Source: a virus. From it: a stretch of 22,618 nt of DNA. Each line of letters begins with the position of its first letter. The stretch's first letter is position 1. The translations under genes and the position numbers were made by a program. Shown one piece after another: positions 130 through 21,502 of the stretch. The stretch covers positions 1-22,618 of IMG/VR virus record IMGVR_UViG_3300045944_000421. One strand, given 5' to 3'. A model generated the notes under the pieces. The model saw only the letters and a program-made list of their open reading frames with translations, was not told the origin of the DNA and made no database searches.

Positions 130-777
130 ATGCTGGCGGATGTGCTGTTTCGGATTCAGAAGCGCTTGGAAAAGGTGGGGCTTTCCGAATCGCGGGCGGC
201 GATCGCTGCCGGACTCAGCCAGGACGCCATCAGAAACATGCGCAGAACGGTTGAGTCCGGCAAGCTGGGCGCCGGCGTGAACACCAGCACCATCGCCGCG
301 TTGGCTCCGGTGCTGCAGACGACCGTCAGCTGGCTTTTGGAAGAGCGGGGATCGGAAGAACTCAGCGACGACTATATCGATGCACCGACCGTCATCGACG
401 TGCCGCTGATTTCATGGGAAAGCGCAGCAAAGCTGGGAATTTCGGGCGCCCCGATCCTGGCGCAGGACATGTCCCGTGTCGTGCGCGTGGTTGATCTTGA
501 CATACAGGGCAACTGGATCGCGCTTCGGGTGAGCGGCAATGTCATGAACCTCGTTTCACCACACGACTCGATCATTTTCGTCAATCGCCGTGATCGCCGC
601 CTGGAGCCGTTCAAGTATTATCTCATCGGCACCGCAACCGAAGCGCTCTACCGACGCTTTCGCCCACCGCATTTCTGGGAAGGTGTCTCAACCGATCCGC
701 AGTTTAATAAGCCGGTCGTCCTCATTGAGCCGACGACTATCATCGGACGTGTCAAAAAGTCGCGTACCGATTTGTAA
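130..777 (+). CDS. Phage repressor, HTH plus S24-like domain without catalytic residues
   Basis: A 215-residue protein. Residues about 1-70 form a helix-turn-helix DNA-binding region (motif around SRAAIAAGLSQDAIRNMRR). Residues about 90-215 have the LexA/CI-type S24 fold pattern (LRVSGNVMN...SIIFV...EALYRRF). The catalytic Ser in the usual GDSM motif is Val138, and the catalytic Lys is Arg175. Their spacing of 37 residues equals that of LexA Ser119-Lys156, so the alignment is secure. The expected Ala-Gly cleavage bond appears as Ala99-Ala100. It probably maintains lysogeny by binding O1-O3 but cannot cleave itself in the SOS response. The ATG at 130 was chosen because the longer frame from 25 runs through the operator palindrome and the divergent gene. 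Confidence 0.85.
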   Translation: MLADVLFRIQKRLEKVGLSESRAAIAAGLSQDAIRNMRRTVESGKLGAGVNTSTIAALAPVLQTTVSWLLEERGSEELSDDYIDAPTVIDVPLISWESAAKLGISGAPILAQDMSRVVRVVDLDIQGNWIALRVSGNVMNLVSPHDSIIFVNRRDRRLEPFKYYLIGTATEALYRRFRPPHFWEGVSTDPQFNKPVVLIEPTTIIGRVKKSRTDL

Positions 778-2978: not shown

Positions 2979-3193
2979 TGCCGGATCCTTCGATCAGACG
3001 CCATCCGCATGACAGCCGGAAAGTCATCGTCACCTTTGACGGCAGCACCTATTCGATGGATGTGGCGAAAGCCGAGGAGATGCTAGCCTTCCTGGAGGCG
3101 CACGTTGACGACCCTGACGTTGACAGCGCCGGCCTGCCGGAATTCATCACGGCCATCCACAAGGCACTGGCATCGGTGAAAGGCACGGCGTGA
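2978..3193 (+). CDS. Small hypothetical protein
   Basis: A 71-residue protein that starts at an ATG sharing one base with the RecT stop (TGATG, 2976-2980). It has a basic N-terminus (SIRRHPHDSRK), a short beta-like stretch (VIVTFDGSTYSMDV), then an acidic helical half (KAEEMLAFLEAHVDDPDVD...). The pattern suggests a small soluble, probably protein-binding fold, but I do not recognise the family. It is translationally coupled to RecT and to the next gene, so it may act with the recombination genes. Confidence 0.65.
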   Translation: MPDPSIRRHPHDSRKVIVTFDGSTYSMDVAKAEEMLAFLEAHVDDPDVDSAGLPEFITAIHKALASVKGTA

Positions 3194-3438
3194 CCCTGAA
3201 GCCGGATCCGCTTTCTTATCCCCCGCGCGGCCTGTCCCGCGAAGAAGCGGCGCGCTATGTCGGCGTCAGCCCGCGGCTGTTCGACGAGATGATTGCCGAT
3301 CGGCGGATGCCGAAACCGCGCCAGGTCAATTCCCGCACCATCTGGGACCGCACCGAGATCGACATCGCGTTTTCCGAATTGCCGCACCAGAACAGCGGCA
3401 ATCGGCTGGATGGGTTCTTCGGCATCAAGGCGTCCTGA
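3190..3438 (+). CDS. AlpA/excisionase-like DNA-binding protein
   Basis: An 82-residue protein. Residues 14-60 (LSREEAARYVGVSPRLFDEMIADRRMP...) have the winged-helix pattern of AlpA and MerR-type excisionases: a helix-turn-helix followed by a short wing containing RTIWDRTEID. Such proteins bend DNA at attachment sites to favour excision, or act as small transcription factors. It begins with GTG in a GTGA overlap (3190-3193) with the previous stop. A tyrosine integrase and candidate attachment region lie about 1.1 and 2.7 kb downstream in the same operon, so excisionase is the best guess; a regulatory role is the alternative. Confidence 0.7.
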   Translation: MTLKPDPLSYPPRGLSREEAARYVGVSPRLFDEMIADRRMPKPRQVNSRTIWDRTEIDIAFSELPHQNSGNRLDGFFGIKAS

Positions 3439-4323: not shown

Positions 4324-4569
4324 ATGGAAGATAGCAGCAACATCGGACTCTTGATCCTGGGAGCGCTTTATCTCCTGCCGGGGATCATCGCGTCGGCACG
4401 CAAGCACAAGAACAGGGATCCGATCTTCATCGTCAATCTGTTTTTCGGCTGGACCTTCATCGGCTGGGTGGGTTGCCTCGCCTGGAGCCTGTCGCATCAG
4501 GAGCGGCCAGCGCTCGCCAAGCAGCCTGCATCCGAGTCTCAACTGGGCAAGTGGATTGAATCGAAATGA
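4324..4569 (+). CDS. Superinfection immunity protein (T4 Imm-like)
   Basis: An 81-residue inner-membrane protein with two hydrophobic segments, about residues 7-24 (IGLLILGALYLLPGIIAS) and 33-56. The LYLLPGIIA motif, a short basic loop (RKHKNRD) and then VNLFFGWTFIGWVGCLAW are characteristic of the Imm_superinfect family named after T4 Imm, which blocks DNA entry from superinfecting phages. AGAGGGGG upstream is a strong ribosome binding site. Its stop overlaps the integrase start (ATGA). In a temperate phage it could protect the lysogen or the infected cell from related phages. Family assignment is fairly sure; the target phages are unknown. Confidence 0.8.
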   Translation: MEDSSNIGLLILGALYLLPGIIASARKHKNRDPIFIVNLFFGWTFIGWVGCLAWSLSHQERPALAKQPASESQLGKWIESK

Positions 4570-5702
4570 AACATCCGGATTATCCCGGCGTCTCGTCCTA
4601 CGAGGACCGCCATGGCAAGACCCGCTGGCGCTTCCGCAAGAGCGGCCTGCAGCCGGTGAACCTTCCCGGTGAGCCGCACTCGCCGGACTTCGACGCCGCC
4701 TATGAGAAGGCCATTTATGGCCAGCCGCAGCCGCGCCAGGGACAACTGGTGCGGTTGAACACTGCCGCGCTGCCGGAGTCATTGCGCGCCGCCTATGTAC
4801 TGCTACGGAGGACTGCCGGATGGCAGAAACTGGCCGACACCACCAGAGCCACCAACAGCCGCCACATCGAGAATTTTTTGACCCATGGCGGGCGGCCGAT
4901 CGGCGACCAGCCGGTGGCCGATCTCAGGCGCAAACATATCAAGGCCTATCTTGAAACGATGGCCGAGACGCCGCATGCGGCCAAGGTGGCGTTGAAGGCA
5001 ATCCGCAAACTGACCAATGTCGCGCTCGACGAGGAATGGATCGACACCGATCCGACCTCGACGCTGAAATACAATCCACCGCGCGACGGCTGGCCGGCGT
5101 GGACCGAGGACATGATGGACGCCTTCGAGCGCCGCTGGCCAATCGGCACACCACCGCGCACCGCCTATGCGCTCGGCCTCTGGCTGGGCAACCGGGCCAG
5201 CGACGTCGCCCGGCTGCGCTGGGACCAGCTGAAGGCCAAGACCTTCGTGGTCGATGGCGAGGCGGTCCGGATCGAGGGCTTCGAGTTCGTCCAGCACAAG
5301 GGCCGCAACAATTACGGCCGCGAGATGTTCCTGCCGCTGACGCCGATGCTGGCCAGCGCCCTGGCACCGCTGGACCGCTCGAGCGAACGGGTGCTGGTAT
5401 CGCGGCTCGGCCGCACCTTCAGCGACAATGCGCTGGCCACCGCGATGATCAAGTGGGCGGGACAGGCCGGCGTGCCTTCCGGCTATTCGATGCATGGATT
5501 GCGGAAAGCGCTGGGCGTCAAACTGGCCGAGGCCGACGCCACGACGCGGGAAATCATGGAAGTGCTTGGACACACCAGCATTGAGCACGCCGCGCTCTAC
5601 ACCAAGGACGCCGACAAGATGCGGCTGGCGGTGAAGGGCATGCGCAAGATGGCGGCAATGGAGCAGCTGCTCAGAAAGCCGGACCTGAAGGTGGTGAAAT
5701 AA
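4566..5702 (+). CDS. int: Tyrosine site-specific integrase
   Basis: A 378-residue tyrosine recombinase that inserts and excises the phage genome at att sites. Residues about 1-60 form a basic arm-binding-type N-terminus (YEDRHGKTRWRFRKSG). Residues about 75-170 are the core-binding SAM-like domain. Residues about 180-360 are the catalytic domain with all key residues visible: Arg210 (LGNRASDVARLRW), Lys245 (QHKGRN), His310 and Arg313 (HGLRK), His336 (LGHTS) and the nucleophile Tyr345 (ALYTK). It starts in an ATGA overlap with the immunity gene and ends in a TAATG overlap with the next gene. It lies close to a repeat array that could be its attachment region. Confidence 0.92.
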   Translation: MKHPDYPGVSSYEDRHGKTRWRFRKSGLQPVNLPGEPHSPDFDAAYEKAIYGQPQPRQGQLVRLNTAALPESLRAAYVLLRRTAGWQKLADTTRATNSRHIENFLTHGGRPIGDQPVADLRRKHIKAYLETMAETPHAAKVALKAIRKLTNVALDEEWIDTDPTSTLKYNPPRDGWPAWTEDMMDAFERRWPIGTPPRTAYALGLWLGNRASDVARLRWDQLKAKTFVVDGEAVRIEGFEFVQHKGRNNYGREMFLPLTPMLASALAPLDRSSERVLVSRLGRTFSDNALATAMIKWAGQAGVPSGYSMHGLRKALGVKLAEADATTREIMEVLGHTSIEHAALYTKDADKMRLAVKGMRKMAAMEQLLRKPDLKVVK

Positions 5703-18575: not shown

Positions 18576-19114
18576 GCGCGCGGAACCCATAGCCCGCTGA
18601 GCAAATCGCTGATCCAGAACGGCATCTGTTCGAGATCGAGCGCTGTCACCGATTCGCGATGCTCGTAGAGCATGCCGGCGACGCGCAGAATGCCGGCCCG
18701 CATCGGCGGCGGCAGGCTGGCCATATCGGCATAGCCGGCAGTGAGCGTTATCGCGGCATCGGCCGCGAATGCCGTGCCGTCGCTGTGCACCAGCCATACC
18801 GGCTCGGTCAGGCTGGCGCTTTCGAGCGCATATTCCGACGAGACGTCGACTGCATCCGCCACCACCGTGAATGCCGATACCGGCTGCAACGGACACTGGT
18901 AGCTTGCGGCGCCGGTTGCCAGATCCGGCTGCCAGTCGACTGCAGCCGAAAAGATAGACAGCCCCCAGACATGCTCGAGCAGCCCGATCGACTGCGCCAG
19001 CTTGTCGGTAATCAGTGCATCCTCCACCGAGTGATCGACGCGCAAATGCTGCTTGGCCATGTCCAGCAGCGCCGCCGGCAGTGTGGTCCAGTCAGGAGTC
19101 GCGGTATAGCTCAC
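18572..19114 (-). CDS. Head-tail connector protein (HK97 gp6-like)
   Basis: A 180-residue protein with the gp6-like connector pattern: LPAALLDMAKQHLRVDHSVEDALITDKLAQSIGLLEHVWG at the start (helical, matching the family's L..vK.HLRvd...DD.l...I..A), a beta middle (QPVSAFTVVADAV), and a helical end (LPPPMRAGILRVAGMLYEHRES). These proteins form a ring beneath the portal. It starts with GTG in a GTGA overlap (19111-19114) with the collagen-like gene. Confidence 0.85.
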   Translation of the reverse strand: MSYTATPDWTTLPAALLDMAKQHLRVDHSVEDALITDKLAQSIGLLEHVWGLSIFSAAVDWQPDLATGAASYQCPLQPVSAFTVVADAVDVSSEYALESASLTEPVWLVHSDGTAFAADAAITLTAGYADMASLPPPMRAGILRVAGMLYEHRESVTALDLEQMPFWISDLLSGLWVPRA

Positions 19115-20019
19115 TCGCCGCGCTCCTGGTCGTAGCGTTCAAACATGGGTCTGAGGTCAACGATGGTTTCGCGGCCGTCGGTCAGCCGCAACACCAACGA
19201 CCAGTCACGACAGGCAATGCCGGTAATGCCAGCGCCGGCCTCGCCGCGCTCGCCTTTCGGGCCGCGCTCACCAGAACGCCCCTGGCTACCGGCGCGTGCC
19301 GCCAGCATCCAGCCGTCGCCGGGCAGTGGCCCAGGATCGTCCGAGCGCGCGATCCATTCCGACCCGTTGAATGACACACGGTCAAGTTTCGCGTAGGCGT
19401 CGTCCGGGTCGTATTTGCCGCGCGCCTCACCGGTGCGACCATCAGGACCGCGTGGCCCTTCGGGTCCCGGCTCACCGGCCGGTCCCGGTTCGCCGTCCTT
19501 CAGAGCGGCCAGACGCTCGGTCATATCCTCACACAGCCGGTCATAGCGGCGGCGGGCCGCAAGTAACTGCTCCTGTGCCTCCAGCCGCTCCTCGCGCAGT
19601 TTTTCCAGCGTCTGCACGGCCAGCCGTTCCTCAGCCGCAGCGACCTCAGTGACCAGTTCATCAATGCGCGATTCGGTCTGTTCGCGGAATTCCATGTAAT
19701 CAGCAACACGATTGCTGATCTCTTCTACTACCGGCGGAACGAGGTCCGCACGCTGGGTCAACTCATCCAGTCTGATGCCCAACGCGGCATCGGCTTCGCC
19801 GCATACTTTGGCAACTTCCTCAACAGCGGCGGCAATATCGCCCTGCAATTTCACCAGAGTTTCGCCGCCGCCCCACCGCATTTCATCGATTGCCGCCGAT
19901 ATCCGGTCATGCTCGATGTTGATGCTTTCACCGATGGCTGTCGTCAGCCGCTCGCGTTCCTCGGCGAACCGGCGACCGAGATAGCGGCTGAGATCATCAA
20001 GCTGCTCTTGAAGTGACAT
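19111..20019 (-). CDS. Coiled-coil and collagen-like protein in the head module
   Basis: A 302-residue protein. Residues about 1-170 are charged, helical coiled coil (SLQEQLDDLSRYLGRRFAEERERL..., EERLEAQEQLLAARRRY). Collagen-type Gly-X-Y triplets follow at about 176-200 (GEPGPAGEPGPEGPRG) and 244-264 (GERGPKGERGEAGAG), separated by a small globular part (VSFNGSEWIARSDDPGPLPGDGW). The C-terminal ~38 residues form another small domain. Such proteins trimerise into rods and often decorate phage particles. The ATG at 20019, overlapping the portal gene by 23 bases, was chosen because the frame beyond it lies inside portal coding sequence. Confidence 0.75.
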   Translation of the reverse strand: MSLQEQLDDLSRYLGRRFAEERERLTTAIGESINIEHDRISAAIDEMRWGGGETLVKLQGDIAAAVEEVAKVCGEADAALGIRLDELTQRADLVPPVVEEISNRVADYMEFREQTESRIDELVTEVAAAEERLAVQTLEKLREERLEAQEQLLAARRRYDRLCEDMTERLAALKDGEPGPAGEPGPEGPRGPDGRTGEARGKYDPDDAYAKLDRVSFNGSEWIARSDDPGPLPGDGWMLAARAGSQGRSGERGPKGERGEAGAGITGIACRDWSLVLRLTDGRETIVDLRPMFERYDQERGE

Positions 20020-21502
20020 GCTCGGTCTCGCCCAGTTCGAATGCGCGTTCATCGAATTTTGCCGCCTTCGCCTGCTCCGGTTCCTCTTCCTGCGCTTCCG
20101 GTTTCTCTTCCGCCTCAGCCGCCGGTGGTGGCGGCGGCGGTGCATCGGGCCGCGGCGTTTCCGGCTTCGCCTTGTCCCATGCCGATAGCGGCACCACCTG
20201 CTGCTGCACCCTTGGCTCGTCGCCGAACGGTGCGTCGGGCAGATCCTCGGCGTTGCGGGCTTCGTTCGGCGCATAGATGCCGCCTTGCACGCCCCGCGCC
20301 AGCGCCTCGATGCGATCCTTGTAAGCCACGCGAAGCAACGCCGCGGTGTCGAACTCGACCCATTCGTCCGGCCATGATCTGAGCCCGAAGAAATGATCGA
20401 AAGCTACTTCTATGTGATTGATGGCGAATCCGAGCCCGCGCGCCAGCCAGAACTGCATCAGCGCCTCGGTCGAGGCAAAACTTGCCTTGTCGGTCATGCC
20501 GAGGATGGCCGGCGGTACGCCGTAGACCATGAAGATTTCTTCCTGGGTCAGCTTGATGGTCGCCGCCACGTCGGCCTCCTGGGCCGTCATCGAAACGCCC
20601 TTGAACTTCATGCCGGGCGGCAGGATCGGTGGACGGCCGGCCAGATTATCGACGCCATGCCAGGCTTCATTGAAACGCTGCCCGAACTCTTTCGTTTGTG
20701 TGGTGGTCACAGCCACATCGGTCTCAATGACGCCGGCAGGCCGACTCATGTTGCCGAATGTCTTGACCAGCTGGCTGCCAATCGCCCGCTGCGCCGCAAT
20801 GGCGCTTGCCGCATGCCGCACCGGCGGCACCCCGACCAGCGGCTGGCCGCGGTTGGCTTCAAGTTTCACGTGTAACACGTCACGCGCTGGAACAATGATC
20901 GAAGTGCCGGAACCGGTGAGGCCGAGAAAGCGGCTGCGGTCGACGCTACCGCCATACTGTCGCTCGATCACGTCGTTGCCGGCCAGCTCATAGAAAACCT
21001 CGCCGCCCTGCGCCACCAGCGGCCGCGACTGCTTCGGATCGAACGGGTGCAGCGCCGCCACCTCAAAACGGTCGTTGCGAACGGCCAGCGCATAGGTGTT
21101 GCCGTCACGATAGAGATCAGCGGCAAGTTTCAGGATGAAGTCCGAGCGGGACTGGTAATCGTTCGGCCGCCGCAGAATCCTCGACAGCGCCGAATTGGTC
21201 ACCCGCTCGCGGCCGCCGTTGGGCAGCGCCCGCCAGTGATCGCCGGGACACATGGCAATGGTCTGCGCATAGGCCGCCACGCAGGCCTCGACGATGGCCG
21301 ACCCGCCGGCGGCCAGCGGGTCGAGGTCCATCTGCCAGAAATTCCAGTAACCCCATTCAGACGGCAGCCAGCCCTGATTTTCGCCCGTGGTGATCAGCCA
21401 CGGACCGGCCTTTGGCTGACCCTCGACGCCCGGCGTGCCGCTTTCCAGGCTTTTGCCAGTGAAGCGCTGCAATGCCCTGCGAAACGGATCGGCAATCGCC
21501 AT
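19997..21502 (-). CDS. Portal protein (HK97 family)
   Basis: A 501-residue portal, the dodecameric ring at one vertex of the head through which DNA enters and leaves. Family motifs are in order: SAIVEACVAAYAQTIAMCPG, RILRRPNDYQSRSDFI, ADLYRDGNTYALAVRND, VLHVKLEANRGQPLVGVPPV, KFKGVSMTAQEADVAATIKLTQEEI and VPPAILGMTDKASFASTEALMQFW. The C-terminal ~80 residues are a Pro/Glu-rich disordered tail (PPPPPPAAEAEEKPEAQEEEPEQ). It starts 4 bases after the stop of the small gene upstream. Terminase genes are not in view and probably lie to the right. Confidence 0.93.
   Translation of the reverse strand: MAIADPFRRALQRFTGKSLESGTPGVEGQPKAGPWLITTGENQGWLPSEWGYWNFWQMDLDPLAAGGSAIVEACVAAYAQTIAMCPGDHWRALPNGGRERVTNSALSRILRRPNDYQSRSDFILKLAADLYRDGNTYALAVRNDRFEVAALHPFDPKQSRPLVAQGGEVFYELAGNDVIERQYGGSVDRSRFLGLTGSGTSIIVPARDVLHVKLEANRGQPLVGVPPVRHAASAIAAQRAIGSQLVKTFGNMSRPAGVIETDVAVTTTQTKEFGQRFNEAWHGVDNLAGRPPILPPGMKFKGVSMTAQEADVAATIKLTQEEIFMVYGVPPAILGMTDKASFASTEALMQFWLARGLGFAINHIEVAFDHFFGLRSWPDEWVEFDTAALLRVAYKDRIEALARGVQGGIYAPNEARNAEDLPDAPFGDEPRVQQQVVPLSAWDKAKPETPRPDAPPPPPPAAEAEEKPEAQEEEPEQAKAAKFDERAFELGETEHVTSRAA

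Follow-up and report, generated by a model that had tools for sequence, protein, structure and literature searches.

Prophage induction without self-cleavage of the repressor is already known from a few phages, coliphage 186 among them. The CI protein of coliphage 186 carries an arginine (Arg152) at the base position and is without the canonical active site (PMC12984324), and it is switched off by the LexA-controlled antirepressor Tum (PMC7708051). The Gifsy repressors GfoR and GftR of Salmonella are not cleaved on induction (PMC3121763). Among the cI proteins of linear plasmid-phages, a phage group different from the one studied here, 210 of 271 were classed by automatic feature calls as putatively non-autoproteolytic, without predicted catalytic residues (PMC10432266).

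In this study, we describe the repressor of a temperate phage from rhizobia-like bacteria. The gene lies in a virus record of 22.6 kb, probably a fragment, which is called the window below. The self-cleavage centre of this CI-type protein was cleanly lost as a derived change, while the other sampled members of the subfamily keep the centre and the operator-like sites around the gene are unchanged.

Gene and protein

The open reading frame at positions 130 to 777 (+) encodes a protein of 215 aa, as the preliminary description had read it, and its start codon at 130 is aligned with the starts of relatives. The protein matches the transcriptional repressor family phrog_4 of PHROGs (5.9e-10). Its match to Pfam S24 is weak, with 17.3 bits for a cut-off of 23.3 bits; the closest full-length relative, from an Aquamicrobium prophage, reaches 46.3 bits. 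The AlphaFold2 model has a mean pLDDT of 90.4 and was matched by Foldseek to lambda CI, a lambda-186 hybrid, LexA and 186 CI, and a profile match to LexA 3k2z was also obtained (E = 0.0012). The S24-like domain proposed earlier is indeed of full length with a complete fold, and the S24/LexA fold is predicted by the model to be kept though the catalytic centre is gone. Based upon phrog_4, Pfam S24 and the model, the gene is annotated as a CI-type repressor with an HTH N-terminal domain and a catalytically dead S24-like C-terminal domain.

The N-terminal DNA-binding domain (residues 1-75, positions 130 to 354, +) shares 55-72% identity with the N-domains of intact relatives and shows a normal evolutionary rate. 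This domain looks intact, and binding to the DNA switch is apparently kept.

Catalytic residues

Residues were counted in a core subfamily of 66 aligned close relatives, and the alignment of the repressor (RVSGNVMNLVSPHDSIIFVNRRDRRL...EALYRRFRP against RVDGDSMNRISPHDSIIFVNRKDKRL...GATYKRFRP) is unambiguous. Val138 (GTC, positions 541 to 543, +) stands at the position of the catalytic Ser and Arg175 (CGA, positions 652 to 654, +) at that of the catalytic Lys; both Ser and Lys are found in 66/66 aligned relatives and in 77/77 relatives from genomes. The expected Ala-Gly cleavage bond reads Ala99-Ala100 (GCA-GCA, positions 424 to 429, +), and Gly is present in 65 of the 66 relatives. The three replacements claimed in the preliminary description are therefore confirmed by the alignment. 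Placed beside the autoproteolytic S24 type, the repressor possesses the fold, and the Ser, the Lys and the Ala/Cys-Gly bond are all missing.

A total of 35 C-domain columns are conserved in at least 90% of the 66 relatives. The repressor keeps 27 of them and loses eight, compared with four lost in the next worst row and one in the median row, and Gly100, Ser138 and Lys175 are all among the eight (hypergeometric P = 0.0086).

Two sets of relatives support these counts. The first contains about 76 distinct C-domains from viral contigs, all with catalytic Ser and Lys, and is biased at the nucleophile because the pattern for most of its members admitted only Ser or Val there. The second search, in bacterial genomes, used patterns touching neither catalytic column and yielded the 77 distinct relatives counted above, each with Ser and Lys. 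No close relative in the same Val/Arg state was found. An exact-peptide search of viral contigs with the protein gave no match, and a degenerate DNA search of the viral contigs for GNVMNLV gave 18 loci, none of which is related, and no other member in the Val state.

Phylogenetic analysis

In the C-domain tree, the repressor groups with L038, L042, L147 and the Aquamicrobium protein L145 (UFBoot 98, SH-aLRT 74), its exact placement being uncertain because its branch is long. All four of these proteins have an intact dyad, and the dyad loss is derived since the repressor is nested among intact proteins. The terminal branch of the repressor measures 2.29 in the C-domain tree versus 0.20-0.31 in its sisters, about ten times longer, and 0.55 in the N-domain tree, near the median of 0.49; these branch comparisons are indicative because the two domains recombine in this repressor family, in addition to the long branch. 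A relative-rate test against the Aquamicrobium protein with L141 as outgroup counted 34 to 5 unique changes in the C-domain (P = 2e-6). Whichever outgroup was used, the repressor showed the C-domain excess (16:9 to 34:5), and P was below 0.05 with 9 of the 13 outgroups. The N-domain was not accelerated in the same comparison. The acceleration of the C-domain could alternatively reflect plain decay of the domain.

Flanking sites and genes

AT-rich GGTN6ACC sites occur in the 22.6 kb only as O1 to O4, two on either side of the repressor gene. Upstream, the operator-like site O1 (GGTTAATTTACC, positions 57 to 68) is at the same place, about -74, as in intact relatives, and O2 (GGTTGACTTACC, positions 81 to 92) follows at 24 bp, a spacing common to L025, L036, L043, L101, L110 and L111. 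Downstream, O3 (GGTTTTTTTACC, positions 793 to 804) is 29 bp from O4 (GGTTAATTTACC, positions 822 to 833), as in L021, L022, L023 and L026. In relatives with an intact dyad the upstream pair is likewise 24 bp apart, and the downstream pair, where present, 29 (or 27) bp apart. When the flanks were shuffled, three sites were never reached in 20,000 trials. The four sites look like the lambda-type operator pairs around cI, apparently conserved across the dyad loss. Their layout, being shared with intact relatives, argues for a working repressor and not a pseudogene, and suggests that repression by the protein may be retained. The features of a CI-type lysogeny repressor that can be read from the sequence, namely a DNA-binding N-domain and paired operators, are present together with the phrog_4 match.

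The window start cuts the divergent gene, which occupies the Cro position, and only its first 14 codons (MLDIDHLLDVADAY..., positions 1 to 42, -) are available. They resemble the counterpart in the Aquamicrobium prophage, a protein of 80 aa (MISISHLLRLVDAY...) encoded at the same position, which belongs to phrog_7669, annotated as of unknown function, and is without Pfam match. Since this counterpart adjoins a repressor with an intact dyad, the divergent gene is not specific to the dyad loss, and its proposed role as an antirepressor was rejected as unsupported. Neither an exact alphaproteobacterial LexA box (GTTCN7GTTC) nor a match to an antirepressor family was found in the 22.6-kb window, from which the cro side and other genome parts are missing, and a search for an overlapping contig carrying the cro side found none.

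An excisionase/HTH-like gene (positions 3190 to 3438, +) matches phrog_25900 transcriptional regulator (1.2e-14) and phrog_66 excisionase (5.1e-5), and has 58% identity to its counterpart in the Aquamicrobium prophage. An intact tyrosine integrase (positions 4566 to 5702, +; Pfam Phage_integrase, 1.2e-14) also has a homologue there. The integrase, portal, capsid and tail genes all read open, and the phage is thus not obviously decayed.

Several other genes of the window were annotated. The first open reading frame after the downstream operator pair (positions 870 to 956, +) encodes 28 aa with a hydrophobic stretch and has a plausible ribosome site. A RecT-like ssDNA annealing protein (positions 2040 to 2978, +; phrog_561, 3.1e-33) is preceded by a gene at 953 to 1789 with a part-length match to the phage exonuclease family phrog_10477 (4.6e-13). 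Directly upstream of the integrase, positions 4324 to 4569 (+) encode a protein of 81 aa assigned to phrog_1039, immunity to superinfection (3.1e-21). The gene between portal and head-tail adaptor (positions 19111 to 20274, -) has tail-fibre and collagen-like matches in its C-terminal part.

Survey of repressors with the same N-domain

Two wider searches were performed, one with the N-domain alone and one of about 800 genomes with the whole protein, and they show this N-domain fused to many S24 subtypes. Damage to the dyad was found by inspection as Ser to Ala in L125, Lys to Arg in L130 and L334, Lys to Ala in L131, Lys to Arg without Ala-Gly in L260/L261, and Lys to Gly in L326/L328/L332, and as loss of both residues in two neighbouring proteins of L318. 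At the latter locus (G181 C23:20482-21405), two repressor-like genes of the same N-domain family lie side by side, and each encodes a degenerate S24-like C-domain. Among these repressors, where dyad loss is partial or full, the Lys is affected most often (K to R, A or G). No S24 domain at all is present in L102, L112/L114, L122, L135, L144, L243, L245, L252, L276, L329 and L333, and the S24-less proteins end in short C-terminal tails. In divergent subtypes the calls of dyad damage and of S24 absence were made by eye and are less certain than that for the repressor studied here. A rhizobial-type repressor was also found on a 3.3-kb contig of a bin labelled Xylophilus, a non-rhizobial genus (L208), possibly through contamination of the bin.

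When the label intact or lost was mapped on the N-domain tree for the 46 closest members, parsimony required 11 changes, at least four of them forced by well-supported branches. Loss of the dyad or of the whole domain is recurrent in this N-domain family. No conserved LexA box was found near the other dead-dyad or S24-less members examined. A broader reading is that this alphaproteobacterial repressor family repeatedly loses RecA-cleavability and keeps DNA binding, and that an undescribed inducer, possibly one independent of the SOS response, docks on the dead S24 domain or is sensed by it; we regard this as doubtful.

Discussion

S24 self-cleavage is not expected without nucleophile and base. 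Some trace of activity might survive if only the Lys were changed to Arg; none should survive a change of Ser to Val. From this established chemistry the repressor is very likely non-cleavable and, both dyad and cut site being lost, RecA-stimulated self-cleavage should therefore be unable to inactivate it. The prophage would then have to be woken by a signal other than self-cleavage after DNA damage. In this respect the preliminary description holds; its suggestion that the divergent gene may be an antirepressor is not supported.

The explanation that we consider quite probable is a functional CI-type lysogeny repressor with a dead S24 domain, uncleavable through RecA and induced from outside, most likely by an antirepressor. 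The N-domain would bind a lambda-like operator set with two sites on each side of the gene. The C-domain would be enzymatically dead, with nucleophile Ser replaced by Val, base Lys by Arg and scissile Ala-Gly by Ala-Ala, and would keep the S24/LexA fold, which presumably serves dimerisation and cooperativity. We infer that repression and dimerisation are retained, and its sequence features make the protein likely to be a functional repressor. Induction would require an external factor, most likely an antirepressor binding to the protein, as Tum does to 186 CI. The examples of phage 186 and Gifsy make such a trigger, also put forward in the preliminary description, plausible, and nothing in the window shows one; taken alone, the antirepressor is a tentative proposal to which we give slightly less than an even chance.

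The prophage may instead be locked, with an active repressor that nothing inactivates, a C-domain degrading without replacement and an element heading to domestication. The long C-domain branch and the eight lost columns are in line with such a fate, as is the failure to find an inducing gene in the 22.6-kb window. However, 27 of the 35 conserved columns and a confident fold model are retained, the structural genes and the integrase are open, and other dead-dyad or S24-less members are spread across many prophages, which makes locking unlikely.

In special constructs one S24 molecule can act on another, and host LexA, UmuD or the repressor of a co-resident prophage might in this way cut the protein. 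In a few intact relatives (L071, L087, L251), too, the cut Ala is followed by an amino acid that is not Gly. Nevertheless, the window has no second S24 gene, the Gly of the cut site is lost and the region around it is predicted to be helical in the model, so that cleavage in trans appears highly improbable.

Cleavage through another nucleophile and base inside the C-domain, for which Ser143, Ser147 and a Lys specific to the window in PFKYY would be available, has a negligible chance: both serines are also invariant in intact relatives, which have the catalytic Ser close by, and thus are not replacement nucleophiles, the Lys precedes position 175 by about 13 residues, and the check for a different Ser/Lys pair that the preliminary description had proposed was run by alignment, in which no second pair fits. 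An error of sequencing or assembly, conceivable for a single virus record of which no identical copy was found, is scarcely credible, since three separate sites are substituted, neither GTC from a Ser codon nor CGA from a Lys codon can be reached with fewer than two substitutions, which goes beyond a chance base error, the frame is open and the divergence around the sites is accelerated to match.

The derived loss, with the operators unchanged and the centre kept by the other sampled members of the subfamily, makes this protein well suited to a natural comparison of the ways in which prophages replace SOS self-cleavage. It also cautions that an S24 annotation of a repressor does not always mean that the prophage is SOS-inducible.

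Comparison with described repressors

The two-domain layout and the fold are those of lambda CI and LexA (MEROPS S24), in which, unlike here, the catalytic Ser, the Lys and the scissile Gly are present. The Gifsy repressors GfoR and GftR are without this C-domain altogether, whereas the present repressor keeps the domain in a dead form. The closest full-length relative found, the prophage repressor L145 of Aquamicrobium zhengzhouense (54% over residues 1-211), has the Ser, the Lys and the Ala-Gly bond intact, and its prophage region carries an integrase and xis related to those of the phage studied here. With coliphage 186 CI (PDB 2fjr, 2fkd) the repressor shares a C-domain of LexA/CI fold, to which its model was matched, and an Arg at the base position. 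The two differ in that no sequence relationship was detected between them, a Tum-like gene was not found in the 22.6-kb window of this incomplete genome, and the loss described here arose inside an otherwise catalytically intact subfamily. The S24-like fold without catalytic residues that marks the 186 CI/Tum type is nonetheless present in this repressor, and coliphage 186 CI is its closest precedent.
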